Shown in pieces: positions 300 to 28,216 of a stretch of 28,216 bases of DNA. Location of the stretch: the IMG/VR virus record IMGVR_UViG_3300012017_000922, positions 1 to 28,216 of that record; one strand, 5' to 3'. The stretch's first letter is position 1, and every line of letters starts with the position of its first letter. The DNA is from a virus. Below the pieces are notes generated by a model, which saw only the letters and a list, made by a program, of their open reading frames with translations, was not told where the DNA came from and searched no databases. Both the position numbers and the translations under genes were made by a program.

Positions 300-1928
300 T
301 GGTGCAAAATTTACAATAGTTGGACATGCACATGCCGACGTATCAACATTGTTCACACTAAAACCTGTTACACATTCACCAGGTTGTAATACAGGATTTA
401 AATTAAAACTATGATTATGGTCTCCTTGTGCGATTGTTTCAGTTCCACAATAAATCGTACCTAAATCACCATATGCACATCCTGATACAATATAATTGCA
501 AAATGCGTTTGCTGGACTTGTAAATGATGGGTCATTAAATAATGATAATTGAAAATTATGACAACCACCAAAATCAACTTCCAAATATTGTGTAATAATT
601 TGACAACTCGGAGTTATCGATGGAGTTAATGATGGTGTCGGTGTTAAAGATGGAGTTTCACTTGGTGTTACACTCATAGATGGTGTCAATGATGGGGTTA
701 CACTCGGAGTTTCAGATGGAGTAACACTTGGGGTTTCTGATGGGGTTAATGATGGTGTAGGTGTTAAAGATGGAGTTTCAGATGGTGTTACACTCGGAGT
801 TTCTGATGGGGTTGCAGTTGGGGTTTCAGATGGTGTTAATGATGGTGTCGGTGTTAAAGATGGAGTTACACTTGGAGTTGCAGTTTCTGATGGAGTCGGA
901 GTTGGACTTTCAAAAGGAGTAACACTTGGAGTTTCTGACGGGGTTGCAGTTGGAGTTTCTGAAGGAGTTAATGATGGTGTAGGTGTTAAAGATGGAGTTT
1001 CTGAAGGAGTAATACTTGGGGTTTCTGATGGGGTTAATGATGGTGTAGGTGTTAAAGATGGAGTTTCACTCGGTGTTACACTTGGAGTTTCTGAAGGAGT
1101 TAATGATGGTGTAGGTGTTAAAGATGGAGTTACACTTGGAGTTTCTGATGGGGTTAATGATGGTGTCGGTGTTAAAGACGGAGTTTCACTCGGTGTTATA
1201 CTCGGAGTTTCTGATGGGGTTAATGATGGTGTAGGTGTTAAAGATGGAGTTTCTGAAGGAGTAATACTTGGAGTTTCACTCGGTGTGACACTCATAGATG
1301 GAGTAATACTTGGGGTTTGACTTGGTGTAATACTTGGGGTTTCTGATGGAGTCGGAGTTGGGGTTTTAGATGGGGTTAATGATGGTGTAGGTGTTAAAGA
1401 TGGGGTTCCTGAAGGAGTAACACTCGGAGTTTCTGATGGGGTTGCAGTTGGAGTTGGGGTAAGAGTTGGAGTTGGTGTTGGAGATACATACTGGTCGCAT
1501 GCATTAATATCTTCAAAATATACTATATTAATATCCAATGCAACACCACCAATATGGTCATTGAATCTTTCAACAAATGTGTTTGATATAACAGGTACAA
1601 CAACATCAAAATAATCATAAAATGTTCCACCTTTATTTGAAATCTGACTCATGAAATCTCTTGCTGCAAGACTCATATCACTTACAACATCAACCTGATT
1701 TGATAAATCTGTATTAACAATATCACCAAAAATTATGGATAAATTTGCTTGTGTTGTATTTTCATCATAAGTAAATTGAAGTGGTGTTACAAACATTAAT
1801 GGATATAATGTGTTCTCATTTCTTTCACCAAAATAAACGATATCTCCATGACCAAAACTCTTCATTTTGATTGGAAGATTATCTTTAATTAATTCAATTA
1901 ATTTGTAATATGTTAAGTAATGTTGCAT
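1..1928 (-). CDS. Giant adhesin, N-terminal part (gene continues across the circular junction at 28161)
   Basis: The ATG is at 1928 and the frame runs open off the left edge. It continues in the same frame at 28161 and stops at 25797, giving about 1430 residues in all. Residues 1-145 closely match the start of the neighbouring 570-aa protein (shared motifs DIVNTD, SDM, RDF, FYDYFD, ERFNDH, NACDQY). Then come a long Thr-Pro-Ser rod (xTPS units, 604-1490), a globular insert of about 100 residues with eight cysteines (about 303-605), and a second rod (1-300). I checked the insert codon by codon and found no stop. The N-terminal domain probably anchors the protein to the virion; its size and position suggest a tail-terminator or neck protein, which is inference. 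The rods resemble stalks that carry the receptor-binding parts. The ATG lies 16 bases after the stop of the paralogue, so the two are probably co-transcribed. Confidence 0.85.
604..1490 (-). repeat. Thr-Pro-Ser coding repeat tract (long rod)
   Basis: A run of 12-base units encoding x-Thr-Pro-Ser, mixed with 6-base Thr-Pro units. A longer motif encoding [11 protein letters not shown] starts at 625, 745, 835, 967, 1033, 1099, 1153, 1219 and 1375. All spacings (54, 66, 90, 120, 132, 156) are multiples of 6, so changes in copy number keep the frame. This is typical of a slippage- and recombination-prone stalk. Short-read assembly may have collapsed or rearranged the tract. Confidence 0.9.
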
Positions 1929-1944
1929 ATTATATATATGAATC

Positions 1945-3657
1945 TTAATTTAATGACATTGAAGTTAATGAACCTACATTAAATCCTGTTCCAAGATTTG
2001 TATAGAATGCAGTATCTTCGGTTCCGTCATTATTTAATCTAACTAATCTATTTCTTGTTAATCCATTAAATGTTGAATATGCACCAGCTACCAATATTTT
2101 ACCATCAGGTTGTTCCATAAGAGAAGTTACAGTACCACCAAATGCTGACCCTAAATTTGTATAGAATGCAGTGTCTTCTGTTCCATCATTATTTAATCTA
2201 ATTAATCTATTTCTTGTTAATCCATTAAATGTTGTAAAATTACCAGCAATTAGTATTTTTCCATCAGATTGAATTAAGATATCGTTTGGACCAATAGTAA
2301 ATGCTGTTCCTAAGTTTGCATAGAATGCAGTATCTTCGGTTCCGTCATTATTTAATCTAGCGATTCTGTTTCTAGTATTTCCATTAAATGTTGTGAATCC
2401 ACCAACAATTACTATTTTACCATCGGATTGAGGAGCAACATAATTAATCTGACCACTAAATCCTGTTCCTAAATTTGTATAAAATGCAGTATCTTCTGTT
2501 CCATCAGAATTTAATCTAACAATTCTAAGTCTAGTATTTCCATTAAATGTTGAATATGAACCAACTACCAATATTTTTCCATCAGATTGAATAGCCGAAT
2601 GAAATAGTTGAGCACCAAATCCTGTTCCAACATTTGTATAAAATGCAGTATCTTCAGTTCCATCACTATTTAGTCTAACAATTCTGTTTCTAGTATTTCC
2701 ATTAAATGTTGTGAATCCGCCAATAACTACTATTTTTCCATCGGATTGAAGTGATGCCCAATTTAAAATAAGATTAAATGATGTACCTAAATTTGTATAG
2801 AATGCAGTATCTTCTGTTCCGTCATTGTTTAAACGAATTAAATATATTCTTGTTAATCCATTAAAAACACCAAAAGTACCGGCTAATATTATTTTTCCAT
2901 CAGGTTGAGTTATTGTTGTATTAACACCACCAGTGGTAAATGCTGTACCTAAATTTGTATAAAATGCAGTATCTTCTGTTCCATCACTATTTAATCTAAC
3001 AATTCTATTTCTAGTATTTCCATTAAATGTTGTATAACTATTACCAACTATTGTCATTCCTGTAAAAGTCACTGGTATAGATGATGGTGTTGGTGTTGGA
3101 GTTGGTGTTAAAGATGGAGTTACACTCGGAGTTTCTGATGGAGTTACACTCGGAGTTATTGATGGAGTTAATGAAGGTGTGGGTGTTACACTTGGAGATG
3201 GACTTGGAGATGGGATTGGTTCGTATTGGTCACACGCATTCATGTCCTCAAAGATTGTTACAGGAATATTTAATTCGACACCTCCCAAATGGTCATTAAA
3301 TCGTTCCAGAAACGTCGTTGATGTGTTTGGTAGGTCTGTATCAAAATAATCATAAAATACACCCAGCTTAATCTGTGATAGAAAATCCCTACATGCAAGA
3401 TTCATATCACTTATGACATTAACCTCATTACTCATGTCAGTGTTTACAATATCACAAAATAAAATGTTTAGTGTAAACTGAGTTGTATTTTCATTATATG
3501 TTATTTGATTTGGAACAACGTGCATCAAAGGATAAAGTGTTGGATTATTTTCTTTACCCAAATAACTTAAATCACCAGTATTAAAACTTTTAATTTTAAT
3601 TGGAAGATTTTGCGATATTAACTCAATTAGTTTTTTATAAGTTAAATAATGTTCCAT
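1945..3657 (-). CDS. Adhesin paralogue: neck/tail-terminator-like domain, Thr-Pro-Ser rod, one seven-repeat propeller block
   Basis: The protein has 570 residues. Residues 1-145 are the paralogue of the N-terminus of the next gene (start at 1928). Residues about 146-195 form a Thr-Pro-Ser rod (3074-3222). The rest holds seven repeats of about 52 residues with the core [19 protein letters not shown], resembling delta-60 repeats and probably one seven-bladed beta-propeller. The leading domain, with its LYPLM and RDF-type motifs, has the size of a siphovirus tail-terminator protein. That is inference, and it could be another neck or tail anchor. The gene sits between the chaperone-like gene and its longer tandem copy, 16 bases before the latter. 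Short and long forms may be mixed on one virion, or one may be a reduced version of the other. Confidence 0.85.
1951..3070 (-). repeat. Seven delta-60-like repeats (block A)
   Basis: Seven tandem units of about 156 bases, each with an FNG motif, an RLN[SN]DGTEDTAFY core and a Q.DGK end. The last unit lacks the DGK end and closes the protein. The DNA is also similar between units and with blocks B and C, which gives ample homology for recombination. Confidence 0.85.
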
Positions 3658-3674
3658 TCTTTAATAAATACTTT

Positions 3675-3986
3675 TTAACGAACGTTATTTTTACCCTGCA
3701 TTTTTTTCATTTCATTCTTCATTTCAATTGCCTCGTCCTTTTTATAAGATAAAAAATTCAAACATAGAATTACATTCATATTATTGATTTGTTCCATTTT
3801 TGTTATGTCATCATTACAGAGAATCATCAAGCATTTCCAATAAAACCTCGCAGTTTGGTTTTTATCTTTTGGAACATCTTCTTGAACTTGTTCTTTATCC
3901 TCGTCTTGACCATCTGTATTTGACTCTTCTGTTTCAAAGAATCCGCTAAAACTTTTGTGAATATTGTTACGCTTTGCAAAAAAAAA
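3675..3986 (-). CDS. -1 frame extension of the chaperone-like gene (fusion product about 268 aa)
   Basis: After a -1 slip in the T9 run, the frame stays open for 100 codons to TAA at 3675. It holds an acidic linker (ESNTDGQDEDKEQVQEDV), then a compact helical segment with FYWKCLMILC and LNFLSYKKDEAIEMKNEM. The same frame has an ATG at 3827, overlapping the zero-frame stop as TGATG. A separate 50-residue protein (MILCNDDITK...) is therefore an alternative or additional product by coupled re-initiation. A third option is a one-base error in the homopolymer, which would make one 268-residue gene. The linker composition and low third-position G/C support real coding in this frame. Confidence 0.6.
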   Translation of the reverse strand, partial: FFFAKRNNIHKSFSGFFETEESNTDGQDEDKEQVQEDVPKDKNQTARFYWKCLMILCNDDITKMEQINNMNVILCLNFLSYKKDEAIEMKNEMKKMQGKNNVR

Positions 3987-4480
3987 CCTGATACACTTAA
4001 ATAAAATTCTAATGGTAAATCCAAGAATTCTTCTGCTCGTTGTTCAATATCATTTGAATTATAATTTTCAATTTGATATTTGTTATTTTTTAATTTCTTA
4101 ACAACAGGTCGATATAATATGGCCATAATCTTATGAATGTTATCCAATACATTTTCACCATTTGAATATACCTCAAGGTCAACCCATTCTGCCATGGTTA
4201 ATTTATAAAAGTCTTGGACCAATCCATATTCCTTATCATTGTGTTTAAATTGAAAAATAATTTTACTTGGTTTTTCAACATGTAACATGGGTACTAGTTT
4301 CTTTTCAAGGAAATTAAAATTATCGGGTTCCAATTCTTTTAATTCATTTTCAGGAATACCAGTCAAAACAGAAATAATTTGAAATGTGTTTGGGTTACCA
4401 ATCTTGGTTAAAGTTTGGTAATGTCTAATTGTTAATGTTTCAGGTAATTCTATTTTTTGGTCGTTATTGTATATTATCAT
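3827..4480 (-). CDS. Tail-assembly-chaperone-like protein, zero-frame product
   Basis: The zero-frame product has 217 residues. The ATG overlaps the stop of the large terminase gene by a few bases (TCAT at 4477-4480). Visible motifs include VLTGIPENEL, LTMAEWVDLEVY and KIMAILYRPV, on a mostly helical alpha/beta core. No known fold is certain. Near the end, a run of nine T (minus strand; 3978-3986) lies where the frame reads GGT TTT TTT TTG. A -1 slip there opens a further 100 codons. The zero-frame tail after the run is Lys-rich and uses more G/C in third positions than the -1 frame, so it may be the less natural reading. This core-plus-frameshift layout is the hallmark of siphovirus tail chaperones, which coat the tape measure during assembly. 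An unusual point is that the gene lies far from the tape measure gene. Confidence 0.65.
   Translation of the reverse strand: MIIYNNDQKIELPETLTIRHYQTLTKIGNPNTFQIISVLTGIPENELKELEPDNFNFLEKKLVPMLHVEKPSKIIFQFKHNDKEYGLVQDFYKLTMAEWVDLEVYSNGENVLDNIHKIMAILYRPVVKKLKNNKYQIENYNSNDIEQRAEEFLDLPLEFYLSVSGFFLQSVTIFTKVLADSLKQKSQIQMVKTRIKNKFKKMFQKIKTKLRGFIGNA
3978..3986 (-). promoter_or_regulatory. Candidate -1 frameshift slippery run (T9)
   Basis: On the minus strand the zero frame reads GGT TTT TTT TTG. The T TTT TTG heptamer allows both tRNAs to re-pair after a one-base backward slip. I did not identify a clear downstream pseudoknot by eye. Confidence 0.5.
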
Positions 4481-5631
4481 ATGATTAATAGTTTTGATTT
4501 ATTGTCCAGGAATTGAACCACCACATATTTTGTGGCATCAATTAAGTGGTCTTTTCCTGTTGTTGTATTTGTTATGTTACCAATACGGTCCTTCTTAAAT
4601 TTATAGTTTGAGAATTCATTTATCAAATCAACTGAATCTTCATGTACATAAATTGAGAATTGTTTTAATTTTTGGATTGCATATAAGATACTGGTCTTGC
4701 TAACCGGTCTAACATTTAATCCATGTTTTTTTAATTCACTGATTGATTTTGGTTCTGCTGAATCACAGACAATGTTTGCGTTTCTGTCAATACCAATCTC
4801 TTTTATTTTAAATGCAAGGTCTTCGTTTGTTAATCCCAAATCATATATAATTTGTTTTATATATATATTTTTTCCATCCACATTTACTTCGACCATTGCA
4901 CATTCATCATTGGAAAAACCAAAGTCAATACCATAATATTTCGATTTAATTGTTGGAGGTAATGATGTATATGTTTTTGGTTGGGTGAATATCTTTTCTT
5001 TTGGTTCGACTATGAGACCTAAATTATATATTTGATATAAGTCCTCATCAACATTTTTTAAATCTTTGATTGCTTGAATTGTTGCATCATCCAAAAATGG
5101 ATTTTGATTAAATGTTGAATGTATCATTATTCCATTCTCTTTATTTTCATAATCCAAACCCCACCAATCCATTGGAATTTCGGGGTTATAACAACAGATA
5201 ATATATTTGGATGTTCTTATATCGAGTTGAACAAATTCGTTCTTATTACACGTGTTTATTTCATCCACAAGAACAATGTCACTCTTTAACCCACGGAGTT
5301 TACCAGTAGAATCATCAAGACCAATAAATCTTACAATTGAACCATTATCAAATTTATATATAAGTTCTGACTTATTGAAATTTTCATCTTTGAATATATC
5401 TAATGATTCCAAGATTGATTTGAAATCTTGAATGATTGTTGCTTTAAGACTGACTTGGGTTGCTCTGGCAATGGTTAATGTTATTTTATTTAATAAACAT
5501 TCAACCACCACATTTTGTGTTGCAGCATAAGTTTTACCACTACGAGTTGAACCACGCAAAAAGATATATCTTTTGTTATCAGTCTTTGCGTTTTCTATTT
5601 TTTCATATAGTTCACTTACCTGAAGCTTCAC
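4477..5631 (-). CDS. terL: Terminase large subunit
   Basis: This is the ATP-driven motor that packages DNA through the portal and cuts it. The protein has 384 residues, slightly short for the family. Walker A is GSTRSGKT at residues 27-34. Walker B is IVLVDEIN, with the acidic pair at about 123-124. The C-terminal RNase-H-like nuclease has GIDFGFS (Asp236), VCDSAEP (Asp about 290) and KDHLIDATK (Asp361/365). The start is a GTG at 5631, inside the end of the 56-aa small gene, preceded by an A/G-rich stretch. The small terminase lies upstream, which fits a packaging cassette. Its stop overlaps the start of the chaperone-like gene. The call is secure. Confidence 0.96.
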   Translation of the reverse strand: MKLQVSELYEKIENAKTDNKRYIFLRGSTRSGKTYAATQNVVVECLLNKITLTIARATQVSLKATIIQDFKSILESLDIFKDENFNKSELIYKFDNGSIVRFIGLDDSTGKLRGLKSDIVLVDEINTCNKNEFVQLDIRTSKYIICCYNPEIPMDWWGLDYENKENGIMIHSTFNQNPFLDDATIQAIKDLKNVDEDLYQIYNLGLIVEPKEKIFTQPKTYTSLPPTIKSKYYGIDFGFSNDECAMVEVNVDGKNIYIKQIIYDLGLTNEDLAFKIKEIGIDRNANIVCDSAEPKSISELKKHGLNVRPVSKTSILYAIQKLKQFSIYVHEDSVDLINEFSNYKFKKDRIGNITNTTTGKDHLIDATKYVVVQFLDNKSKLLII

Positions 5632-6172: not shown

Positions 6173-6670
6173 TTATATATGTTTCCACTTTTTATTATTA
6201 AGTATTCTGCTAACTTGACTAACACTTAGTAGAAATATATTTGCTAAATCTTTTTGTTTGTAACCACCAGTTTTATACATTGAACGTAAATTTTGAACTT
6301 CAAATTCAGTAAGTTTTGACATCCCATTTTTTTCGCCCTTTAAAGGGTCTTTTAGATTATTTGCAAATGCATGTTTCATATTTTCACTACAAGTTACCCA
6401 TTCCAAATTTTCAATGTTATTATCCGTTTTAATTCCATTGATATGATTACATTGAAGAGTTTTATCATCGGTGGGTTTAAAGGTTTCTAGTATCATCCTA
6501 TGTACTTTTTTCGTGATTTTTTTACCATCGATATGGATTGATGTACAAACATATCCTTTGTTGTTTATTGTGGTGGCCATTTTTTTTAATTCCCCTGATT
6601 TATTGGAATATACATCTCCTTCTTCTGTTACATAATAGTCGGTTTTTTCATACTGTTTTAAATTGGTCAT
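6173..6670 (-). CDS. HNH endonuclease with NUMOD4-like start and helix-turn-helix tail
   Basis: The protein has 165 residues. An N-terminal YYVTEEGDVYSNKSGE segment resembles NUMOD4. Next comes the HNH core, VHRMILETFKP, then CNHINGIKTDNNIENLEWV, with the catalytic His-Asn-His pattern intact. The C-terminal helix-turn-helix is KLTEFEVQNLRSMY ... YKQKDLANIFLLSVSQVSRIL. This is the architecture of free-standing homing endonucleases in phages. It sits just upstream of the small terminase, a site where HNH genes often occur and sometimes help packaging. Its tail is homologous to those of the genes at 7566 and 8911. I read it as a mobile gene. Confidence 0.9.
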   Translation of the reverse strand: MTNLKQYEKTDYYVTEEGDVYSNKSGELKKMATTINNKGYVCTSIHIDGKKITKKVHRMILETFKPTDDKTLQCNHINGIKTDNNIENLEWVTCSENMKHAFANNLKDPLKGEKNGMSKLTEFEVQNLRSMYKTGGYKQKDLANIFLLSVSQVSRILNNKKWKHI

Positions 6671-7565: not shown

Positions 7566-8060
7566 ATGAAAAATTTTTTTGAAAACTATTATGTTACACA
7601 ACACGGTGAAGTCTACCAAAAGACTGATAACGAGTATGTTTGGGTTGAACCAAGAATGTGGCAAGGACTAAGGGTGCTCGATTTATTTGATACCAAAAAT
7701 AGAAAGAAAATACGATTTAAAATTCATCGACTGGTTGCGGAAACATATATTCCAAATCCAGAAAATCATAATGAAGTTATTCATATTGATTTTAATAAAT
7801 TAAATAATCATGTTGATAACTTAAAATGGGTCCCTCGATACTATTCACTGCATTATACAAAACATCAAAATCATAATGCAAGTGGTGAAATGCACGGTAA
7901 TGCAAAAATAAGGGAAGAACAGGTTATCTTTATCCGCGAAAACTTTTATCAAATGGGTATAACTCAAAAAGCAATGGGACAAATGTTTGGTATTAATCAA
8001 CAAACTGTTAGCAATATTTTACATAATAAAAGTTGGAATAAAATCAAAGATAATGAATAA
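7566..8060 (+). CDS. HNH endonuclease with helix-turn-helix tail (second copy)
   Basis: The protein has 164 residues. NUMOD4-like N-terminus (YYVTQHGEVYQKTDNEYVW), HNH core (IHRLVAETYIPN, VIHIDFNKLNNHVDNLKWV), and C-terminal helix-turn-helix (ITQKAMGQMFGINQQTVSNIL). The HNH region reads IHIDFNKLNN rather than the usual NHxxGxKxNN, so activity is less certain than for the copy at 6173. It is the first gene of the plus-strand operon and ends 8 bases inside the replication gene. I read it as a mobile homing-type gene in the early operon. Confidence 0.88.
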   Translation: MKNFFENYYVTQHGEVYQKTDNEYVWVEPRMWQGLRVLDLFDTKNRKKIRFKIHRLVAETYIPNPENHNEVIHIDFNKLNNHVDNLKWVPRYYSLHYTKHQNHNASGEMHGNAKIREEQVIFIRENFYQMGITQKAMGQMFGINQQTVSNILHNKSWNKIKDNE

Positions 8061-8910: not shown

Positions 8911-9111
8911 ATGAAAAACCCTAAACATCGATATGGCGAGAATCATGGTCGCAGTAAACTAAGAGAAGACCAAGTGAGAGATATTCACTACCTTTATAAC
9001 ACGGGTAATTTAACCCAACAAGAAATTGCAACAGAATTAGGTGTGAACCAACGAACAGTTTCCAACATTGTTAACGGTAAAAGTTGGAGACATCTAAAAC
9101 TTGACGAATAA
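8911..9111 (+). CDS. Orphan helix-turn-helix protein derived from an HNH tail
   Basis: The protein has 66 residues. SKLREDQVRDIHYLYNTG followed by LTQQEIATELGVNQRTVSNIVNGKSW matches the last 55 residues of the HNH protein at 7566 (shared GE.HG..K.RE.QV, TQ.., GVNQ/GINQ, TVSNI...KSW) and also that at 6173. There is no nuclease domain. It is probably a DNA-binding domain left after loss of an HNH gene, or a domain recruited as a regulator. It is the last gene of the plus-strand operon. Confidence 0.75.
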   Translation: MKNPKHRYGENHGRSKLREDQVRDIHYLYNTGNLTQQEIATELGVNQRTVSNIVNGKSWRHLKLDE

Positions 9112-9489: not shown

Positions 9490-10077
9490 TTAAGAATTAG
9501 TTACGTGACCGTACCAAGCGGGATAGGGACAATTTCTTTCATCAAACCAACCCCAATTACCTGGCATTGAAATAGGTGATTTGAACGCAGTATTTTGACT
9601 TGGTTGCAATTGTTCCTTTTGGTTATCCGTATATTCGGGAAAAAGATTTGAATTAAATATAAGATATCTTCTCATCATATTGTTATTAAATTCAGCATCA
9701 TCTTTAACATTTGTTTTTAGTTGAAGATATGTTTTGAATTCAATCTTTTGACCTTGTTCAGAACTATTTGATACCAATCCAATTGATAAGAATTTTGCAA
9801 TGAAATTATCCAATGCACGATAAATAGAAAACCCAATTAAAGTGGGTTGGATATATTTGTCCAATAAAGTTTTGTAATGAATATTACCGGCTTGATTGAT
9901 TGTATTATTATCAACCAAATCCAAAATTTTATTGTATAATTTTGTTCCAAGTGTTTCTTGGATTTCAATATTTTGACTGGTTAAAATTGAATATCTTAAT
10001 TCATTGGCTTGAACATTTTCACCAATGTAACTATAAGATTTTAATACATTCTCTGATATTAATAATATGTTATTCAT
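9490..10077 (-). CDS. Head completion / head-tail connector protein
   Basis: The protein has 195 residues. The start MNNILLISENVLKSYSYI...NVQANELRYSILTSQNIEIQ followed by GTKLYNKILD is typical of a connector-like protein found next to portals in Bacteroidetes phages. A helical bundle (HYKTLLDKYIQPTLIGFSIYRALDNF) fits an adaptor that stacks below the portal. The C-terminus is aromatic and proline-rich (NWGWFDERNCPYPAWYG). The ATG overlaps the portal stop. The function comes from position and pattern. Confidence 0.6.
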   Translation of the reverse strand: MNNILLISENVLKSYSYIGENVQANELRYSILTSQNIEIQETLGTKLYNKILDLVDNNTINQAGNIHYKTLLDKYIQPTLIGFSIYRALDNFIAKFLSIGLVSNSSEQGQKIEFKTYLQLKTNVKDDAEFNNNMMRRYLIFNSNLFPEYTDNQKEQLQPSQNTAFKSPISMPGNWGWFDERNCPYPAWYGHVTNS

Positions 10078-11132
10078 TATTCTAAAATTTTGTTTTGTAT
10101 TATTTTTAAATCAACATTCTCATCCAAATGTATTAGTTTAACAATGTTATCTAGTTCTCCTATTAAATACTTTTGAAATGGTTTAATTGTTGTTGATAAG
10201 AATAAATTATACGATGTGGTTAATTGGTCTGCAGATGAAGAAAAACCTTGTGGTGATGGTAAACCGATGATTGCACCATCGATAATTTTATGACCACTCA
10301 TGATTTGTCTTTGTACCAATTCAAAGATACTACTGAAATAACCATCTTCAACATTGGTTTGGATTTGAGTAATCTCCGGTTTTTGTTCTGACTCGCCATA
10401 ACTTATAATTACCCTTCCCGCATTCTCTGCACCCTGATATCTTTCTTCAATCTTTCGCAACACTTGGAATTGTTCATTCTCACTTTCAGGTTGTTGTTGA
10501 TTAAAGTGAACCCACAATGATGGACTTAGACCATTCTTAATGTTATGTAAATTGAAAACAGATATCTGTTCATTTAATTTAACGTCATTGATAACACTAA
10601 TCCAATCAGGACAACCGTAATAATCAAATGCAGCGTGTTCTTGTTTTATGTGGATTACTTGACGATTTTCTCTATCTTCAGAATTAAAACTCGCAAATTC
10701 AATCACATTTTTTTTGGTTGGTTTCCACCATTCTCTGCAATAAAAATAATTATCATCTTTTCCGACCCTCATGTATTTTGCTGGTAAAATATGAACACCC
10801 GCCAAACCTTCGTTTCTATCACGTCTCCATACTGCTTCCAAAAATAAATTACCTGTCACCATATATTCAAAGACCATTTTTCTAAACAAAAAATTCAATG
10901 AATCAGATTCATTCATCATATAGTTTTTCTCAAATCCCATTCCCACAATTGCATCAATCTTGGAACGAAGACATGCGTTATGAATTGGAGAAACGTCTGT
11001 TAATCTCAATAATTCATAAGGGTACATATTGTTTGCACCCCATCGAATATATGGTTCATTTTTATTTTCTGTGACCTCAATGAAAGTTTCAGTTGTGTCA
11101 TATTTTGAAAAGTCTAATCTATGTATTTTCAT
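10077..11132 (-). CDS. Portal protein
   Basis: The dodecameric portal forms the DNA gate of the capsid. I chose the ATG at 11132 (MKIHRLDFSKYD, 351 codons). The longer frame to 11198 lies inside the upstream gene and adds an unlikely leader. Portal features: YIRWGANNMYPYELLRL near the start, then SPIHNACLRSKIDAIVGMGF, FEYMVTGNLFLEAVW, HIKQEHAAFDYYGCPDWISV, and a late ISYGESEQKPEITQIQTNVEDG segment, as in HK97/PBSX-like portals. Unusually, it comes after the capsid genes and beyond two terminators. Confidence 0.85.
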   Translation of the reverse strand: MKIHRLDFSKYDTTETFIEVTENKNEPYIRWGANNMYPYELLRLTDVSPIHNACLRSKIDAIVGMGFEKNYMMNESDSLNFLFRKMVFEYMVTGNLFLEAVWRRDRNEGLAGVHILPAKYMRVGKDDNYFYCREWWKPTKKNVIEFASFNSEDRENRQVIHIKQEHAAFDYYGCPDWISVINDVKLNEQISVFNLHNIKNGLSPSLWVHFNQQQPESENEQFQVLRKIEERYQGAENAGRVIISYGESEQKPEITQIQTNVEDGYFSSIFELVQRQIMSGHKIIDGAIIGLPSPQGFSSSADQLTTSYNLFLSTTIKPFQKYLIGELDNIVKLIHLDENVDLKIIQNKILE

Positions 11133-11574
11133 ATACTTTAAATTGTATTTCTGATAAGTTATTTGATGTATTTCCTGTGTTACTATCGTAAGTTTCAAAT
11201 GTTATATTTTCTGTCACACGTAATATACTTTCGTTTACAACATTATAAGAATTGATTGGATTTAAATTCGTTGATGATGTTTGCTCATAAACCAATAAAT
11301 AATATTCGCCAGGAATTAAATGAAGATTAACATTGGTTATTGATGTTCCCGTATATATTTCTGCAGCATTTGGATTAACATCAATGTTAAAATGGTCTTC
11401 TGCGGGAAGATAACTAACACTGGGTGGAATACGATAAGGTATTGCTCTCCATATTTGGTTGGTTACCTTATGTTTAAAATTAAAAAGATAATAAACTGTA
11501 CCCGATAATAACTTATTCCTCGAACAAGTTAAATACATGGTTTGACCTGTTGTGTCACCAGAAAGATATATCAT
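11119..11574 (-). CDS. Beta-rich virion protein, unknown
   Basis: The protein has 151 residues: MIYLSGDTTGQTMYLTCSRN, an aromatic strand run (YYLFNFKHKVTNQIWRAIPYRI), and a PGEYYLLVYEQ segment typical of a beta-sandwich. It starts inside the end of the 73-aa gene and overlaps the portal by 14 bases, so it is probably translated together with the portal. A structural role is likely; I cannot name the family. Confidence 0.6.
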   Translation of the reverse strand: MIYLSGDTTGQTMYLTCSRNKLLSGTVYYLFNFKHKVTNQIWRAIPYRIPPSVSYLPAEDHFNIDVNPNAAEIYTGTSITNVNLHLIPGEYYLLVYEQTSSTNLNPINSYNVVNESILRVTENITFETYDSNTGNTSNNLSEIQFKVYENT

Positions 11575-11985: not shown

Positions 11986-12525
11986 TTATTGAACAGTGAT
12001 ACCTGTCATGACCGCTTGGAGGGTAGTGGTCACATCAATTTCCATGGATGGATTAGGTTCACCACCTGACATAGTAAATGTCACACCGTTGGCATCGTTG
12101 TAAGCCTGACCCATTAACATGGAACCTGCACTTACGGTAAGACCATTTTCTTGGCCAACCAACCAATAACGACCGTTATTGTCTTCAATTATGATTATTA
12201 AATCATTGGGTTTGATAAGGTCAAACCATTTTGTACGTAAAATTTGGTCTAATTTAGGTAATGTTACAACTAAACTTGGGACAAATACTACTGATTGGGC
12301 TGTCTCGTTCACCTGAAGTTCTTCAGTAAACGAAGAAGACTGTTTTACAAGTTCGTACTTGTAAAATGTTCCTGTACCCGCAATCGCAGTGATGCCACCT
12401 GTTTGAGTTGATGTTACACCTGTAATTGCATTACCAGCTCCGCCTAAAACCCAAAGGGCTTTAACACCACCAGTACTTGCATTACGACAATCTAATGTAT
12501 GACCGCTCGAAATATAACAACTCAT
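11986..12525 (-). CDS. Virion structural protein (head decoration or tail tube)
   Basis: The protein has 179 residues. SGHTLDCRNASTGGVKALWVLG at the start, GTFYKYELVKQSSSFTEEL, and a C-terminal IIIEDNNGRYWLVGQENGLTVS-AGSMLMGQAYNDANG pattern of beta strands with Gly turns. It follows the major capsid gene by 35 bases and shares its terminator, so high expression is likely. This fits either a decoration protein or the major tail tube protein. No other clear tail tube is seen, which makes the second option attractive. Confidence 0.6.
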   Translation of the reverse strand: MSCYISSGHTLDCRNASTGGVKALWVLGGAGNAITGVTSTQTGGITAIAGTGTFYKYELVKQSSSFTEELQVNETAQSVVFVPSLVVTLPKLDQILRTKWFDLIKPNDLIIIIEDNNGRYWLVGQENGLTVSAGSMLMGQAYNDANGVTFTMSGGEPNPSMEIDVTTTLQAVMTGITVQ

Positions 12526-12560: not shown

Positions 12561-13505
12561 TTATTTGCAGATTGCGAAAGACGCTACGTCGAATACACCA
12601 AGACCATAAGTTACATTGGCCATGATTTTAACGATATCCTCGAACGGGTCGTAGACAGCTTTAACAGTCATTATCTCGGAATTCATACCGAACAAGTAGT
12701 AACCAGCAGGACCGGCGTAGTATGCGGACACACCATCAAGACCTACGGTTGGGATTACTCTTACATTGGTACCAGGTAACATCAACGACCATTCTTCACC
12801 GGTTGCGACACCTGCACTATCCATTGTAAACAAGTTAACAAAAGAAGAATTTCTCATGCTTGAAACAAGTCCACGATAGTTGGCGTAAGAACAGTAAATG
12901 ACAAGGTCATCACGATGTAATACGTTGGAAGGAATGTTTTCATAGATTTTGGTGAATACATCCAAACCGTTGCTTGAAGTAGCACCTGTGTATGCAATTT
13001 GTGTTGCACCGTTACCAGAGGTAATCAAGTATTCAACACCATTGAAACACTGAGAGTTAAATTCAGTAGCACCAGTTGCGGTTGTATTTCTCCACAATGC
13101 TTTTTCAACTTTGTTTGCAATTCTGTTAGAGATATCTTCCAAAATTACTTCTTCGAATGGAACATTCTCTTGGAAGTTCGCATCACTCAAAGATTGAGAA
13201 AGATATGTGTCATATAAAGAATAAGGACACAAAGTTTGGTTTACTTTTTTGTTACACAAATCAACGGTAACAAGGTTTTGGGTGGTTGTACCAGATTGGT
13301 TAAATCCGCAAGATAAATCTTGCAAATAAACGTCGTTTGTTACGAAACCAACTTTTTCGGTAGTACCTTTCAAATTAGGTCTTACCGTAGCATATTTTGG
13401 AAGAGTCAATCCCAAAACTGCTTTAATTAACATATCCGAACCATATGAATTGTAGGTTGGGAGATTTGTTAAATCATAAGCGAAATTTAATTTCTGTTTA
13501 TTCAT
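12561..13505 (-). CDS. Major capsid protein
   Basis: The protein has 314 residues. An N-terminal segment is followed by a long helix region (NRIANKVEKALWRNTT, about 130-150, like the HK97 spine helix). The rest has strands such as DDLVIYCSYANYRGLV, TMDSAGVATG, PGTNVRVIPTVGL and AYYAGPAGYYLFGMNSEIMTVKAVYDPF, the usual A-domain and P-domain pattern of HK97-fold capsids. Between the scaffold and a structural protein, 11 bases after the scaffold gene, its position is also diagnostic. Its transcript ends at the strong terminator near 11940. Confidence 0.88.
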   Translation of the reverse strand: MNKQKLNFAYDLTNLPTYNSYGSDMLIKAVLGLTLPKYATVRPNLKGTTEKVGFVTNDVYLQDLSCGFNQSGTTTQNLVTVDLCNKKVNQTLCPYSLYDTYLSQSLSDANFQENVPFEEVILEDISNRIANKVEKALWRNTTATGATEFNSQCFNGVEYLITSGNGATQIAYTGATSSNGLDVFTKIYENIPSNVLHRDDLVIYCSYANYRGLVSSMRNSSFVNLFTMDSAGVATGEEWSLMLPGTNVRVIPTVGLDGVSAYYAGPAGYYLFGMNSEIMTVKAVYDPFEDIVKIMANVTYGLGVFDVASFAICK

Positions 13506-16382: not shown

Positions 16383-19313
16383 TTATAATGTCGTTAATTG
16401 TTCCAATTTTCTGTTGATGGTTTGTGCATTGGTAATATCTGATTCAAATACATAAGCACGAATTGGTTCTTGTCTACCTTTTGCAAGAACTTCAACCAAA
16501 CGAGAATCAAGAACATTGTTGATGATTGGACGACCTCCACCCGATTCATTAATTGATGATAACAACCCACCATAATTTAAGGATGATTGACGATTAATTA
16601 CAGCCTCACCACCTTCTAATTCGAATCTTCCAAAATCAACACCACCTTGTTCGTGAGATGGACCCACGACCATACCACCAGTTGCCATTTGTTTTTTAAT
16701 CTTACCACCACGTCTCAATGATTGTGCTTGAGCAATTTGTTGACGAATGGTAGCAATGGACGCTGTGGCCAATAACCCTTCAATACCAATGATGATGGCT
16801 TTTCCTGCGGGACCAAGATTTGGATTGGCCAATGTCGTTACAACCGCTTGTGCTGCACTTGCAATCGTTTGAATTAAGGTCGCTTGAAGAGATGAAATTC
16901 TTGCTTGTTTTTCAATCTGTTTCTTTTTTTCTTGATAGATTTTTTCGGCTTCTGTTCTTTTTGCATTTGCTTCAACCGTATCACCAACAATATTATCCAT
17001 TGTTTTTTGATAGTCACTTTCCAATTTTTCCAATTGCATTGAAAATTGTGTTTGTGTTAATTGACCAATTGTATTAATTGCATTTGAAAAAGTTTGAAGA
17101 TAAGTTTGAATATTACCTAACGCAGTTTGGAATGAATCATCAGCTGGTTTTACATTAGTTGCGGTATTGATTGCGGTTTGTAATTCTAATGCACGATTTT
17201 TTAATTTCTCAAGTTCAACAGGGTCAATAACACCTGCAACATAATCATTGATTTGTTTTTTAACTCTCGCCAATTCACCTTGGATTGCCGCCAAATCTTC
17301 TTGAGGAGTTATTCCTTCAATAAATGGTCCACCAAATTCCGTTGTTAATCTTCCTTCTAATTGTGCTCTTCTTGTATTGAGAGCATTTAAATCCTGATTA
17401 TATTTTTCATATATACGGATTTTTTCATCAACCAATTTTTTCTCCGTTTGTAAATCACGGAGTTTTCTCTGGTTGTCAAGATTTGTAATTTCTCTATCTA
17501 ATCTTTCCTTATCACCTTTATAGGTTTCTTGGAGTTTTAATAAATCAGTAAAATATTGTTTGTCGTTTTGTAAAACTTCCTCATTGGATTTCTTTTCCGC
17601 TTGAGTTATTTCATTAACTAATTTTAAACGTTCAATATTAATTTTTCGTAATAACTCTAAACTTTTTTGATATCTGTCGGTTTCTAATTTTACTATTGCG
17701 GCTAATCTTGATTGTTCTATAAAAGTTAAATCTCTATTTTGACCTTGTAAAATTTTTTCTTTTTCTCTAAATTCAACAAAAGATTTAAATTTATTTAATT
17801 CGGCTGTTTCAAATTGTTTAAATTCTCTTTCATATAATTCAATTTGATTATTTAGATTTTGTTTTCCTAAATTTTCTTGTAATTCATTTAAAGATTTTAA
17901 CCCTTCAATAATTTGTTTATTAGCAAATTCAACAGCATCAGTACGTTGTTTTTGTGTTAATCTTTCTAAGATTATATTTTTCTTAAAATATTCTGTATCA
18001 TAAATTTCAAAGTAGTCTTGAAAGAATTTTTGAAATTGTTCTAAAGTTCTTTTTTGAGATAAAGCAAATTTATCAGATTCACTTAAAAAATTCTCTTCTT
18101 GTAAATCATCAATTGTTTTGAAAAAAGTTTCATAAATTTTTGCTCTATCTTGATTATATTTTTTCTCAAGATTAAGTCTATCTTGTTTTCTTGTTTTATC
18201 AATTTTATCTAAATCAGTATTAAATTTTTCTTCTAATGTGGCTAATTCTCTTAAAGTTTGATTTTCAATAAGACTAATTTCTAACGCTCTACTTTCAGCT
18301 CGACGTTCTTTATTAATACGAGCTTGTTCTTCACGTTGTTTTTTCTTTTCATTGGTGATTTCAATCTCATTTTTCAATTGTTGATTACCTAATGTAATTA
18401 AAGAATTGGTGGTCGTAACGTAATCCTTATTTAATTGTTTAAGTAAATCAAGTTCTTCTTTTGTTGCCCTTCCTGTTGCTTTTAAATTTGATAATCTTGC
18501 AATTTGATTATTTAATTGTTGTTGTAGAAGTGTTAACATTCTACGTTCATTATCAACACCCTGTTGTCTTAATCTAGCAATTTCTTGTTCTGATGCTCCA
18601 CGTTTTTCAGCCAATAAAACTTGTTGTTCATCAAGTAATTTTTGTCTTGCGATTTCTTGATTTGTATTTTGTGCCGCATTTTGTAGTTTTTCTAAACTAA
18701 CAGCCGCTTCATCCACAGAATCACTAAACGCAAGATATGCGGCTGCTAACGCACCAACTACCGCAAGTATTGCTGTATATGGATTCGCTAATAAGGTTGC
18801 ATACAACGCTCTCAAATTGGCGGTGAGTCCTCTTGTTGCAATTGTTTGTGCCGTGGTCGCAAGGGTTGCCGCTTTGGTTGATGCAACTTGAATTAATGTA
18901 TTCGCACTGACCGCAACTTCTGCAATGGCTCTAGCACCTAATGCTACTGTTAATAAATTTTGTGCGGTTGTTGCCGCCTTGGTAATCTGTTCTTGAGATT
19001 CTTGTTCAGCACCCAATAATTGTGCTGCTGCAGTAGCCGCAGCAAAACCAGCGGTAACACCTCCTGTGAATTTCCCTACCGCTTCAATTTGACGTTCAAG
19101 AGATATCCCTTCTGACCTTTTATTAAAGTCTTCTAATTCACCTGATGCGGCACGTAATTCACCTTGTAAACGTTTAAATTCATCACTCCCAATCGCAACA
19201 CCTTTTAATCTCTGTTGGAGATTTTGAATTTCAGTTTCAAGTTCTTTAATTGATGATACTGTTTTACTTACACCATCAATTTTAATTTCTAAACCAATTG
19301 TTCTAACTGCCAT
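16383..19313 (-). CDS. Tape measure protein
   Basis: The protein has 976 residues. It sets tail length and helps DNA entry. Coiled coils cover most of residues 210-720, rich in Gln, Lys and Glu. Hydrophobic segments lie near 165-200 (LLANPYTAILAVVGALAAAYLAF) and 840-885. The C-terminus has ATGGMVVGPSHEQGGVDF ... ELEGGEAVINRQSS, a motif common at the ends of tape measures. Scaled at about 1.5 Angstrom per residue, it implies a tail of roughly 145 nm. It lies 15 bases before the protease gene. Confidence 0.95.
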   Translation of the reverse strand: MAVRTIGLEIKIDGVSKTVSSIKELETEIQNLQQRLKGVAIGSDEFKRLQGELRAASGELEDFNKRSEGISLERQIEAVGKFTGGVTAGFAAATAAAQLLGAEQESQEQITKAATTAQNLLTVALGARAIAEVAVSANTLIQVASTKAATLATTAQTIATRGLTANLRALYATLLANPYTAILAVVGALAAAYLAFSDSVDEAAVSLEKLQNAAQNTNQEIARQKLLDEQQVLLAEKRGASEQEIARLRQQGVDNERRMLTLLQQQLNNQIARLSNLKATGRATKEELDLLKQLNKDYVTTTNSLITLGNQQLKNEIEITNEKKKQREEQARINKERRAESRALEISLIENQTLRELATLEEKFNTDLDKIDKTRKQDRLNLEKKYNQDRAKIYETFFKTIDDLQEENFLSESDKFALSQKRTLEQFQKFFQDYFEIYDTEYFKKNIILERLTQKQRTDAVEFANKQIIEGLKSLNELQENLGKQNLNNQIELYEREFKQFETAELNKFKSFVEFREKEKILQGQNRDLTFIEQSRLAAIVKLETDRYQKSLELLRKINIERLKLVNEITQAEKKSNEEVLQNDKQYFTDLLKLQETYKGDKERLDREITNLDNQRKLRDLQTEKKLVDEKIRIYEKYNQDLNALNTRRAQLEGRLTTEFGGPFIEGITPQEDLAAIQGELARVKKQINDYVAGVIDPVELEKLKNRALELQTAINTATNVKPADDSFQTALGNIQTYLQTFSNAINTIGQLTQTQFSMQLEKLESDYQKTMDNIVGDTVEANAKRTEAEKIYQEKKKQIEKQARISSLQATLIQTIASAAQAVVTTLANPNLGPAGKAIIIGIEGLLATASIATIRQQIAQAQSLRRGGKIKKQMATGGMVVGPSHEQGGVDFGRFELEGGEAVINRQSSLNYGGLLSSINESGGGRPIINNVLDSRLVEVLAKGRQEPIRAYVFESDITNAQTINRKLEQLTTL

Positions 19314-21998: not shown

Positions 21999-22775
21999 TT
22001 AAGTAAATGGAGAATCAATAATTTGATTTGATTTAATTGTAAAAGTTCGTGTTGCTGCGCCAGAACTATTAGTGTTTCTAAAAACATATACAATATTAAC
22101 ATAATCTCCCGAAGAAGGAGTTTGAGATGTGCCTGTTAAATTGTAGGTATATGTTGTATCTGTTGAAAGGACTTCATCAAACGTATCTGCACATATTGTT
22201 GATTGATTTACATTAGAACTATTAACTCTACAAACATATATTTCATACAATCTAATACCAGTTGGCATGGTTGAACTTGTCCTTAATCTAACTGTCCAAG
22301 TACCACTATTCCAATTAGTACCACTGTTTATTGTTAATTTAGATTGTAAACCCCATTGAACTGATGAATTATCAATTTGACAAGTAATGTCTGATGTACC
22401 TGCTGCTCCACCAATAGTAGCTGTCCTTTGATTATAAGTATATACGGGACCATATGGTGAACAAGCATTGCTATCACCATTTGTAAAAGTATTATCAGTT
22501 TGTTGAAATGATAAAATTGCTAATGCAGATGTACTAGGTGTTGGAGTTACTGATGGGGTAACACTAGGTGTTACTGAAGGACTAACAGATATCGATGGAG
22601 TAACACTCGGAGTTACACTTGGTGTTGGACTCGGACTTGGAGAAGGAATATCTTCTTTTTCAACATTCATTATTATTTGACCATCAAATCTGGCACCATA
22701 AACATTACCTTGCCACTTCTTTTCACCGAGTGGTTTTAAGAGTTCCTCAATGGGATATTTTATCTTTCTTTTCAT
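21999..22775 (-). CDS. Tail-associated protein with Thr-Pro-Ser rod and beta-rich tip
   Basis: The protein has 258 residues. A short N-terminal anchor (YPIEELLKPLGEKKWQGNVYGARFDG), then a rod of xTPS/VTPS units (about 43-80), then a beta-rich tip of about 170 residues with three cysteines (NACSPYG, DITCQID, YVCRVN). The rod matches those of the adhesins, so this is another stalk-and-tip protein. The start overlaps the previous stop as ATGA (22772-22775), so translation is coupled to the upstream tail gene. It may decorate the tail tip or take part in adsorption. Confidence 0.75.
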   Translation of the reverse strand: MKRKIKYPIEELLKPLGEKKWQGNVYGARFDGQIIMNVEKEDIPSPSPSPTPSVTPSVTPSISVSPSVTPSVTPSVTPTPSTSALAILSFQQTDNTFTNGDSNACSPYGPVYTYNQRTATIGGAAGTSDITCQIDNSSVQWGLQSKLTINSGTNWNSGTWTVRLRTSSTMPTGIRLYEIYVCRVNSSNVNQSTICADTFDEVLSTDTTYTYNLTGTSQTPSSGDYVNIVYVFRNTNSSGAATRTFTIKSNQIIDSPFT

Positions 22776-23314
22776 CTGTTGTTACCTACTAATGCTATAT
22801 TATTCGCATAAACATAAGTTATCTCCAAATTATAAATAGGTTGGAAATTTTCTATTTTTCTTACGTACTCTGCGTTAGTTATATTTACTGGTCTTAATTG
22901 ATTATCATCATTGATAATATACACTTCTGAACTTGTCATCAATTCTTCTAACCACTGAAATTCTTCCAATGATATGAATCCTGTATTTACGATGTGAGTT
23001 TCAATAATAGAAACATCTGCGTCAGTAAGACCTCTATCGTATCTTTGTTTATTTAAATTGGCCAATTTATCTGTCCAAGAAACTGACCATGTTTTATAAC
23101 TTTGTCGTGATATTCCCAATCCTTCTTCAATACTTCCTTTGAACCACATATAATCATATAATCCAAATCTGTTTTTGAACATGAATTGTTTTTGGTTATA
23201 ACCACGCGTGCAATCGGGTTCAATCTCAAATGTAAATAATTCTGAGACTGCGGTATATGTTTGACAATTACCACTTATATAACTGGTTGGTACTGGATTT
23301 ACTGGAACACTCAT
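22772..23314 (-). CDS. Tail protein (tail-tip domain)
   Basis: The protein has 180 residues. FTFEIEPDCTRGYNQKQF-MFKNRFGLYDYMWFKG is a segment found in tail proteins of Bacteroidetes phages, followed by helices (SIIETHIVNTGFISLEEFQWLEELM). It starts about 10 bases after the end of the 637-aa gene. The two may correspond to parts of one protein in related phages, because the upstream gene starts with a typical N-terminal tail domain and this one looks like its continuation. That is a hypothesis. Confidence 0.6.
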   Translation of the reverse strand: MSVPVNPVPTSYISGNCQTYTAVSELFTFEIEPDCTRGYNQKQFMFKNRFGLYDYMWFKGSIEEGLGISRQSYKTWSVSWTDKLANLNKQRYDRGLTDADVSIIETHIVNTGFISLEEFQWLEELMTSSEVYIINDDNQLRPVNITNAEYVRKIENFQPIYNLEITYVYANNIALVGNNR

Positions 23315-23324
23315 ATATTAATTT

Positions 23325-25258: not shown

Positions 25259-25795
25259 TTAATTAAAATCCAAATTCTCCTTTATGTAATTCTCGAAATA
25301 TATCTTTGCTGCTTCACCAATCTTTTCTTCAATTTCATCAATTGTTGTATTGATTGCATTCTCCAAAAATTTAATTCCGAATATACCATATTTTCCAATT
25401 GAACGTCTGATTAAATAAACCAACGATTTTCTTGGAATAAATCTACCTTTCTCATCTCTAGCTGGTTTAACTCTTCTTACGGTCCATCTATCTATCGGAC
25501 CTAATGGTGGATAACGACCAGGTCTTCTTCCATTTTCAACATATTCCCAATAATCAGCAGAACCAAAATCAACAACCAATTTTGGAAGACCATCATCAAA
25601 ATCAGATACCCATTCAACATTAACTGAATTATATAAATTACCACTTGCAATCTTATTTGCAATGGGTGTTGGATATCGACCACTTACAGGTTTTGCTTGA
25701 CCCGAATAAGTTCGTGATGGATAATTCTTTTTTAAATTGGACTGAATATTTGTTTTTAACAAATCAGCAATTTGATTTAATATCTGTTCTTCCAT
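25259..25795 (-). CDS. HK97 gp10-like neck / head-tail joining protein
   Basis: The protein has 178 residues. N-terminal helix ([21 protein letters not shown]), a basic loop ([20 protein letters not shown]), [24 protein letters not shown], then [19 protein letters not shown] and a C-terminal helix. The [FY][14 protein letters not shown] motif is typical of the HK97 gp10-like neck family. It starts one base after the stop of the giant adhesin, so a neck protein directly follows two genes with neck-like N-termini. Confidence 0.75.
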
Positions 25796-25796
25796 A

Positions 25797-28216
25797 TTAA
25801 CTTAATTGAACTGAAGTAACTGAAGAATTAAATGCTGTTCCAAGATTTGTATAGAATGCGGTATCTTCGGTTCCGTCTGAATTTAATCTAACTAATCTAT
25901 TTCTTGTTAATCCATTAAATGTTGTATATAAACCGCCCACTAATATTTTTCCATCGTTTTGGGCATTAATAAAATTAGTAGCACTAGTACCAAATGCTGT
26001 TCCTAAATTTGTATAGAATGTAGTATCTTCGGTTCCATTACTGTTTAAACGAATTAATCTATTTCTAACATTACCATTAAATAATGTAAATGCACCACCA
26101 ATTAGTATTTTTCCATCAGATTGAATTAAGATATCGGTTGCACTTGTAGTAAATGCTGACCCAAGATTTGTGTAGAATGCAGTATCTTCAGTTCCATCAC
26201 TATTTAATCTAATTATTCTATTTCTAACATTACCATTAAATCCTGTAAAATTACCAACTATTACTATTTTTCCGTCAGATTGTAATTTAACATCACTAGT
26301 AATAGCACTAAATGATGTACCTAAGTTTGTATAGAATGCCGTATCTTCGGTTCCATCATTGTTCAATCGAACAAATCTATTTCTTGTAATACCATTTAAT
26401 GTTGTATATTGACCAGCAACTAAAATTTTTGTATCGGATTGTTCTTGAAATCCTCTCACAACATCACCAAATCCTGTTCCTAAATTTGCATAAAACGCGG
26501 TATCTTCAGTTCCGTCTGAATTTAATCTAATTATTCTATTTCTTGTATTTCCATTAAAATTAGTAAATAAACCACCCACTAATATTTTTCCGTCAGATTG
26601 TACAAATATTGCTTCGACACTAAAACTAGCACCAGTAAAAGCAGTTCCAAGATTTGTATAGAATGCCGTATCTTCGGTTCCATTACTATTTAAACGAACT
26701 AATCTATTTCTTGTATTTCCATTTAATGATGTTATAGTACCTCCAACTAATATTTTTCCATCAGATTGTATTGTTGTACAAGCTATATTACCAACAAATC
26801 CTGTTCCAAGATTAGTATAAAATGATGTATTTTCTGTTCCATCATTATTTAATTGAATCATTCTGGCTCTTGACAATCCATTAAAAGTAGCAAAATTACC
26901 ACCGACTAATATTTTTTGAAGAGGCAATGTTGATGGTGTAGGAGATGGTGTAACACTTGGTGCGCCTCCTTGACTTGGTGTTGGAGTTGGAGTTGGGGTT
27001 AATGATGGTGTTATGCTTGGTGTTGGTGTTGGAGTAACCGGTGGAACGGTACCAAAATTTAATAATATTGCTAATACTGTTAAATTAAATGATGCTCCTA
27101 AGTTTGAATAAAATGAGGTATCTACAGTTCCATCTGAATTTAATCTCATTCCATATAATCTAGATACACTATTTAATTGTGTAAATGCACCACCAACAAC
27201 TATTTTCCCATCAGATTGAATTTCAATATCATGAACAGTATTATTATAACCCGTTCCAAGATTTGTGTAAAATGAAGTATCTTCTGTTCCGTCTGAATTT
27301 AATCTAATTAATCCATTTCTAGTATTACCATTAAATTGTGTTATAGTACCACCTACAACTATTTTACCATCTGATTGGATTTTACAACTATATACTTGAC
27401 CTGTAAATCCTGTTCCTATATTTGTTGTAAATGATGTGTCTTCTGTTCCATCTGAATTTAATCTAACTAAATCATTTGTAGTATTTCCATTAAATGTAGT
27501 CCAATTACCTGCTATCAATAATTTACCATCAGATTGAATAATGATATCATTAATCGGACCATCAAATGCTGTTCCTAAATTTGCATAAAACGCGGTATCT
27601 TCAGTTCCATCACTATTTAAACGAATTAATCTATTTCTTGTATTTCCATTAAATGAAGTATATACACCACCTACCAATATTTTTCCATCAGATTGTTCAT
27701 TTTGTACTCGAACAGTATCAGCAAATGATGTACCTAAATTTGTATAGAATGCAGTATCTTCAGTTCCATCACTATTTAAACGAACTAATCTATTTCTTGT
27801 ATTACCATTAAATGTTGAAAAAACACCTCCAACTAATATTTTTCCATCAGATTGTATTTTTACACATTGAGTAGTAGTATTAAATGCCGTTCCAAGATTT
27901 GTGTAGAATGCCGTATCTTCAGTTCCATCGCTATTTAAACGAACTAATTTATTTCTTGTAATACCATTTAATGTTCCGAATGAACCAGCAAGAATTATTT
28001 TATTATCAGATTGTCTATCTGCCCAATTAATCTGACCATTAAATCCTGTTCCTAAATTACTATAAAATGTTGTATCCTGTGTTCCACTTTCATCTAATTG
28101 TAAGGCTCTTTGTCTTACTTGACCATTAAATTGTGTAAATTGACCACCAAATAATAATTTAAGATAGGAAGGAGTTGAAGATGTTGATGATGGAGTAGGT
28201 GTTAATGATGGTGTTA
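25797..28216 (-). CDS. Giant adhesin, C-terminal part: two blocks of seven delta-60-like repeats
   Basis: This is the downstream part of the gene that starts at 1928; bases 28162-28216 duplicate 1-55. I translated from 28216 to 27678 by hand and found no stop, so an internal start near 27677 is not needed. After the rod come seven repeats of about 52 residues (pattern [32 protein letters not shown]...Q.DGK), then a short Thr-Pro-Ser linker (26932-27045), then seven more, ending at the stop. The repeats resemble the delta-60 family, which is expected to form beta-propellers, and seven per block fits a seven-bladed propeller. The likely role is receptor or glycan binding on the virion surface. 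The neck-protein gene starts one base after the stop. Binding specificity cannot be read from the sequence. Confidence 0.85.
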   Translation of the reverse strand, partial: TPSLTPTPSSTSSTPSYLKLLFGGQFTQFNGQVRQRALQLDESGTQDTTFYSNLGTGFNGQINWADRQSDNKIILAGSFGTLNGITRNKLVRLNSDGTEDTAFYTNLGTAFNTTTQCVKIQSDGKILVGGVFSTFNGNTRNRLVRLNSDGTEDTAFYTNLGTSFADTVRVQNEQSDGKILVGGVYTSFNGNTRNRLIRLNSDGTEDTAFYANLGTAFDGPINDIIIQSDGKLLIAGNWTTFNGNTTNDLVRLNSDGTEDTSFTTNIGTGFTGQVYSCKIQSDGKIVVGGTITQFNGNTRNGLIRLNSDGTEDTSFYTNLGTGYNNTVHDIEIQSDGKIVVGGAFTQLNSVSRLYGMRLNSDGTVDTSFYSNLGASFNLTVLAILLNFGTVPPVTPTPTPSITPSLTPTPTPTPSQGGAPSVTPSPTPSTLPLQKILVGGNFATFNGLSRARMIQLNNDGTENTSFYTNLGTGFVGNIACTTIQSDGKILVGGTITSLNGNTRNRLVRLNSNGTEDTAFYTNLGTAFTGASFSVEAIFVQSDGKILVGGLFTNFNGNTRNRIIRLNSDGTEDTAFYANLGTGFGDVVRGFQEQSDTKILVAGQYTTLNGITRNRFVRLNNDGTEDTAFYTNLGTSFSAITSDVKLQSDGKIVIVGNFTGFNGNVRNRIIRLNSDGTEDTAFYTNLGSAFTTSATDILIQSDGKILIGGAFTLFNGNVRNRLIRLNSNGTEDTTFYTNLGTAFGTSATNFINAQNDGKILVGGLYTTFNGLTRNRLVRLNSDGTEDTAFYTNLGTAFNSSVTSVQLS
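25803..26920 (-). repeat. Seven delta-60-like repeats (block C)
   Basis: The C-terminal seven units of the giant adhesin, from KILVGGNFATFNG to the final FNSSVTSVQLS. Units are about 52-54 residues long. As in block A, the block starts with a lone ILVGG strand and ends without DGK, as expected for a propeller closed by its first and last strands. Confidence 0.85.
27046..28185 (-). repeat. Seven delta-60-like repeats (block B)
   Basis: Seven units directly after the second rod. The first (YLKLLFGGQFTQFNG) and the last (ending LAILLNFGTVPP) are the most diverged, as expected for the edges of a closed propeller. The block is separated from block C by the linker at 26932-27045. Confidence 0.8.

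Follow-up and report, generated by a model that had tools for sequence, protein, structure and literature searches.

The window, that is, the whole 28,216-nucleotide stretch of IMG/VR record IMGVR_UViG_3300012017_000922, encodes two paralogous proteins, copies A and B, whose shared N-terminal domain (N-domain) is best explained as a tail terminator, the duplicated copies carrying adhesin-like fibres that would stand at the neck as a second host contact. We put the probability of this reading at about 0.7. It draws on the homology of the two copies, the predicted fold of the N-domain, its gene context and recurrence in relatives, repeated independent fusions, selection on both copies, and the movement of a module from copy B to copy A.

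The phage and its structural genes

The ends of the window carry an exact 55-bp direct terminal repeat (positions 1-55 are the repeat). The contig is therefore circular, and the gene starting at 1928, which crosses the contig ends, is accordingly a single protein. The window is a small long-tailed phage (siphophage). Its structural and packaging genes, all on the minus strand, include the terminase large subunit (4477..5631; PF04466, 1e-23), the conserved g217 upstream of the candidate terminator gene (3827..4480; phrog_32199 in phage P12024L), the portal protein (10077..11198; PF04860, 2.7e-15), a DUF6712 protein next after the portal (9490..10077; PF20459, 3.4e-16) and a 976-aa tape measure protein (16383..19313; phrog_25337, 2.6e-9). 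A profile search also finds an S78-type protease domain, and 12561-13505 is probably the major capsid protein. Gene g179 (11986..12525, minus strand) probably encodes the tail tube protein: its AlphaFold2 (AF2) model (pLDDT 76) has weak Foldseek matches, mostly tail tubes (Mu, SPP1, lambda; best E 0.0097), and its family, phrog_19091, may be proposed as tail tube protein.

Judging by P12024L and the terminase kin, the host group would be Bacteroidota. As read from the sequence, the ORFs at 6173-6670, 7566-8060 and 8911-9111 may be free-standing homing endonucleases of HNH/NUMOD type, plus a DNA-binding fragment related to them.

Architecture of copies A and B

Copy A is the minus-strand ORF 3657..1945 (570 aa), and copy B is the minus-strand ORF starting at 1928. 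Joined over the 55-bp repeat, copy B reads in frame across the contig ends to 25797 as one 1430-aa protein, and it is unbroken in two independent IMG/VR contigs (1434 aa in L002, 1450 aa in L003). The sequence-only reading had called the first 145 or so residues of the two genes homologous, and this is borne out: residues 1-145 of A and 1-147 of B share 67% identity in a global alignment, and the N-domain plus linker of one finds the other at E 9e-70 (BLASTP), far beyond chance.

Copy A consists of the N-domain (residues 1-145, 3223..3657; family HMM 1.2e-53, fold assigned by homology to the copy B model), a 57-residue PT/PS-rich linker (residues 144-200, 3058..3228) and a seven-bladed DUF5122 beta-propeller (1945..3057). 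Copy B is longer: N-domain (residues 1-147, 1488..1928; AF2, Foldseek and family HMM), a 298-residue PT/PS-rich linker (residues 146-443, 600..1493), a Cys-rich island read from the sequence (residues 444-540, 309..599), a 105-residue second linker that runs over the contig ends (1..308 before the in-frame join), and a remainder at 25797..28216 that holds the end of linker 2, propeller 1 (about 28154-27057), the 48-residue linker 3 (27056-26913) and propeller 2 (26912-25797). All these parts lie on the minus strand, and the first linker of each copy was delimited by a composition scan. DUF5122 (PF17164) stretches number seven in A (E 1.4e-91) and 14 in B (E 4.6e-174); at seven repeats per propeller, A has one propeller and B two. 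By eye, Cys-rich stretches like the copy B island also occur in copy A of L004, L005 and L007, and in L025 and L041.

The gp10-like neck gene that was said to follow directly is indeed the next gene (PHROG_5, 'tail completion or Neck1', 3.3e-7), with its location corrected: this HK97-gp10-like gene, a conserved neighbour here called Neck1, lies at 25795..25259 on the minus strand, beyond the contig junction.

Predicted fold of the N-domain

The N-domain was modelled with AF2 from a 40-sequence alignment of diverse family members. The model (pLDDT 82.4, pTM 0.78) has the element order alpha-beta-beta-beta-alpha-beta-beta, and Foldseek searches of the PDB place tail terminators at probability 0.99-1.00: Pa193/E217 gateway, T5 p142, Mu, DT57C, lambda gpU, Milano, and T4 gp15. 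Neck, tail-terminator, collar or connector entries account for all 17 matches with E<=0.001, and the first non-terminator match, RmlT, has a probability below 0.7. Similarity to solved terminators by TM-score is moderate, about 0.4-0.6 (lambda gpU TMt 0.63). The names of the best 50 matches include no tube, Dit or BppU protein. The predicted structure thus has the terminator monomer fold (Foldseek probability 1.00) and not the BppU-like N-terminal beta-sandwich anchor of the neck passage structure (NPS).

By sequence, searches of Pfam, PHROG and the PDB assign the window N-domain to no family. The PDB sequence search with the N-domain family gave no meaningful match, and the nearest curated terminator family is PF20765, found weakly (0.033) by 1 of 40 members.

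From the model we conclude that the shared N-terminal domain is a tail-terminator domain. The sequence-only reading had named a gpU-like ring fold as the outcome that would support it, and structure prediction returned a gpU-like monomer fold, with lambda gpU, T5 p142 and Mu among the PDB matches; no tail-tip or head-fibre protein, the outcome named as refuting, was seen among those matches.

Relatives and gene context

Direct sequence searches with the N-domain reach near kin only; direct tblastn of the N-domain, Neck1, g180 and g877 in a phage collection gave no match, nor did a scan of a genome contigs collection. A pattern derived from the YPxM..DM..FND motif was applied to DNA, where some 40 in-frame homologs remained after about a dozen of 52 matches were dropped as out of frame or false. 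Alignment of the two remotest homologs then extended the set to 139 loci, 80 of them retained. Motif and profile searches together gave about 100 further contigs with the N-domain.

Stand-alone N-domain ORFs of 144-162 aa are common among these relatives. Most relatives have a single copy, either the domain by itself (about 145-165 aa) or the domain plus a short tail, and its gene lies next to Neck1 or right after the portal and DUF6712 genes; in remote relatives the DUF6712 gene directly precedes the terminator gene. Across 138 domain ORFs (all fetched loci, with some contigs fetched repeatedly), the part beyond the domain is at most 20 residues in 59, 21-100 residues in 28 and more than 100 in 51; 63 lie after the DUF6712/portal pair and 31 have g217 and Neck1 as their immediate neighbours on either side. 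Duplicate copies are confined to the window lineage, the other relatives examined having one. Predicted viral proteins (Foldseek, BFVD) likewise include many stand-alone forms, one annotated 'Tail completion protein'.

The cultured Nonlabens phage P12024L carries a stand-alone homolog without a fibre, gp42 (138 aa; phrog_30964, function not assigned there), in the same gene order as the window: terminase, g217-like, gp41, gp42, HK97-gp10-like. On its member at L149 3272-3688, phrog_30964 may be proposed as tail terminator.

The N-domain gene looks like a core structural gene, because the cultured P12024L and contig L014, which was fetched by Neck1 similarity and not through the domain, both carry it in single copy; most other contigs do not bear on core status, since they were found through the domain itself. 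An accessory role was considered because L014 and L015 lack a copy beside Neck1. It was rejected for L014, which has a domain gene directly after portal and DUF6712; contig L015 is too short to bear on the point.

The N-domain gene therefore sits in the head-tail joining module, beside the tail completion/Neck1 gene, and this context in relatives joins the predicted fold in supporting the earlier suggestion of a tail-terminator or neck protein. Terminators are structurally akin to the tail-tube domain of other ring proteins (PMC11784142; PMC7296036), and the N-domain might accordingly be a stopper, distal tail or minor tail protein of that fold class, with its fibres elsewhere, for example at the tail tip; tail-tip-like genes do lie downstream of Neck1. 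This is improbable. Foldseek ranks terminators at probability 1.00 and not Dit or tube, the neighbouring tube candidate g179 ranks tail tubes by the same method, and the domain adjoins portal/DUF6712 or Neck1 in most kin.

Selection and module exchange between the copies

Both N-domains of the window lineage are under purifying selection (dN/dS about 0.05-0.16), and core residues are retained in both copies. Copy B has the shorter branch (0.18 vs 0.35 for copy A) and the higher identity to the single-copy ortholog L040 (58% vs 49%). One copy, probably B, might thus be the working terminator, and the other a derived paralog, a minor decoration or adaptor docking beside the ring. The branch lengths and identities agree with this, as do the single copy outside the window lineage and L006, where copy B is nearly stand-alone and copy A still extended; the similar dN/dS and conserved core of both N-domains, and the propellers on both copies in the window, speak against it. 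We regard it as possible but somewhat doubtful. In L006 (5132-5665), copy B is cut down to the N-domain and a short stub (177 aa), and copy A keeps a non-propeller extension.

In L007, the PT/PS stretch of copy A changes over to a copy B propeller, with 99% identity to copy B of L005 over 808 nt. After the end of this propeller come the first codons of Neck1, and the A-B spacer is then rejoined at a shared 10-bp word, ACAAATATTA (L007 4441-4724). These alignments show that copy A acquired a propeller from copy B. An assembly chimera is unlikely: copy B still follows on the contig, which a simple assembly jump fails to explain, and the downstream joint combines 10 bp of microhomology with a Neck1 scar. 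A separate case is L004 (4343-8352), where a frame change in the PT/PS linker splits copy B into a 375-aa part with the N-domain and two propellers in another frame, by assembly error or in reality.

C-terminal extensions across lineages

The C-termini behind the N-domain vary widely: DUF5122 propellers in the window, YadA head repeats in L132, an arabinofuranosidase-like domain in L054, kelch-like repeats (read from sequence) in L027, and tail-fibre-like plus DUF285 (BspA-like) repeats in L148. BFVD relatives of 600-1035 aa bear names such as ConA-like lectin and collagen repeat. On the tree of the domain, fusions sit in clades far apart, which argues for repeated gain of fibre-like C-termini; the A/B duplication is found in the window lineage alone. 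A conserved anchor with swapped C-terminal modules is a pattern typical of receptor-binding proteins.

The extensions could instead be passive decorations that serve particle stability, diffusion or non-specific polysaccharide contact. Dispensable neck collars and NPS fibres are known (TP901-1, PMC4493119), and the DUF5122 propellers have no known ligand here. We consider this unlikely, given the anchor-and-module pattern (YadA head, lectin-like, BspA-like, propellers) and the carbohydrate-binding modules of lactococcal NPS, which bind host cells (PMC6669499).

Elsewhere in the window, the tail proteins g637 and g180 (22772-25238) together resemble a single 366-467-aa protein found in remote kin (L014, L015, L142), as if it had been split into two. 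PT/PS and Cys-rich modules close the first part of the pair, and a PT/PS linker also occurs in 21999-22775, so adhesin-like modules would be present at several places in the virion.

Proposed arrangement at the neck

The terminator of known siphophages is hexameric; it caps the tail tube and meets the head (PMC11784142, PMC10276861). In the window lineage the terminator gene would be duplicated, both copies bearing adhesin-like extensions in the form of PT/PS-rich rods tipped by one (A) or two (B) seven-bladed DUF5122 propellers. Whether the terminator ring mixes A and B or is assembled from alternative copies, it would then carry short and long fibres projecting from the neck, a second and exchangeable host contact besides the tail tip. 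The earlier suggestion that the rods and propellers hang at the head-tail junction if the domain is a terminator holds up well, neck mounting being well supported by fold and gene context.

An extended PT/PS residue spans about 0.31 nm, and each tape measure residue corresponds to about 0.15 nm of tail length. We infer purely from these values that the 451 PT/PS residues of copy B would span at most about 140 nm, next to a predicted tail of about 146 nm from the 976-aa tape measure; a B fibre mounted at the neck could therefore be long enough to touch the cell surface at the tail tip. That the C-termini exit on the outside is uncertain, because for T5 p142 a short tag at the C-terminus has been suggested to fold into the lumen (PMC11784142). 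Six folded propellers would be too large for the roughly 4-nm channel. In principle, the PT/PS-propeller proteins could also be made and not incorporated into virions.

Comparison with known systems

Like lambda gpU, SPP1 gp17 and T5 p142, the window domain has a predicted alpha/beta monomer fold with a core of about 140-160 aa; unlike them, it has no curated sequence-family match. Its gene adjoins a Z/HK97-gp10-like tail completion gene and is single-copy in most relatives, as for siphophage terminators, but the window protein runs on for 400-1300 aa (linker and propellers) and is duplicated.

The lactococcal 936/TP901-1 NPS is similar in layout: its fibres stand at the level of the neck, their N-terminal anchor conserved and their carbohydrate-binding C-termini variable (PMC6669499, PMC4493119). 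The NPS anchor, however, is a BppU-like domain in a proposed separate collar ring at the portal, whereas the window anchor would be the terminator itself. Neck fibres or spikes also occur as the fibritin whiskers of T4 and the collar spikes of XM1 (both PMC10491603), and as the neck whiskers of phage 812 (PMC12886913); they are separate collar, whisker or decoration proteins without terminator fusion. The open-access literature searched held no description of fibres fused to a tail terminator, and the terminator ring as docking site for exchangeable host-binding parts appears not to have been described there before.

Implications

More broadly, and at slightly under even odds, the tail-terminator ring may also serve a broad, probably Bacteroidota, phage group as a common base on which exchangeable receptor-binding fibres dock; in the window lineage a mixed ring would display short and long fibres on one virion, with modules swapped between the copies by recombination. 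The tail tip is where host recognition by siphophages is usually looked for. Should core terminator rings bear adhesins, many uncultured phages would have host-range determinants at the neck that went unnoticed, and genes labelled 'hypothetical' or 'fibre' would double as essential tail-completion genes. The family phrog_30964, previously without a function, gains a proposed one as tail terminator.
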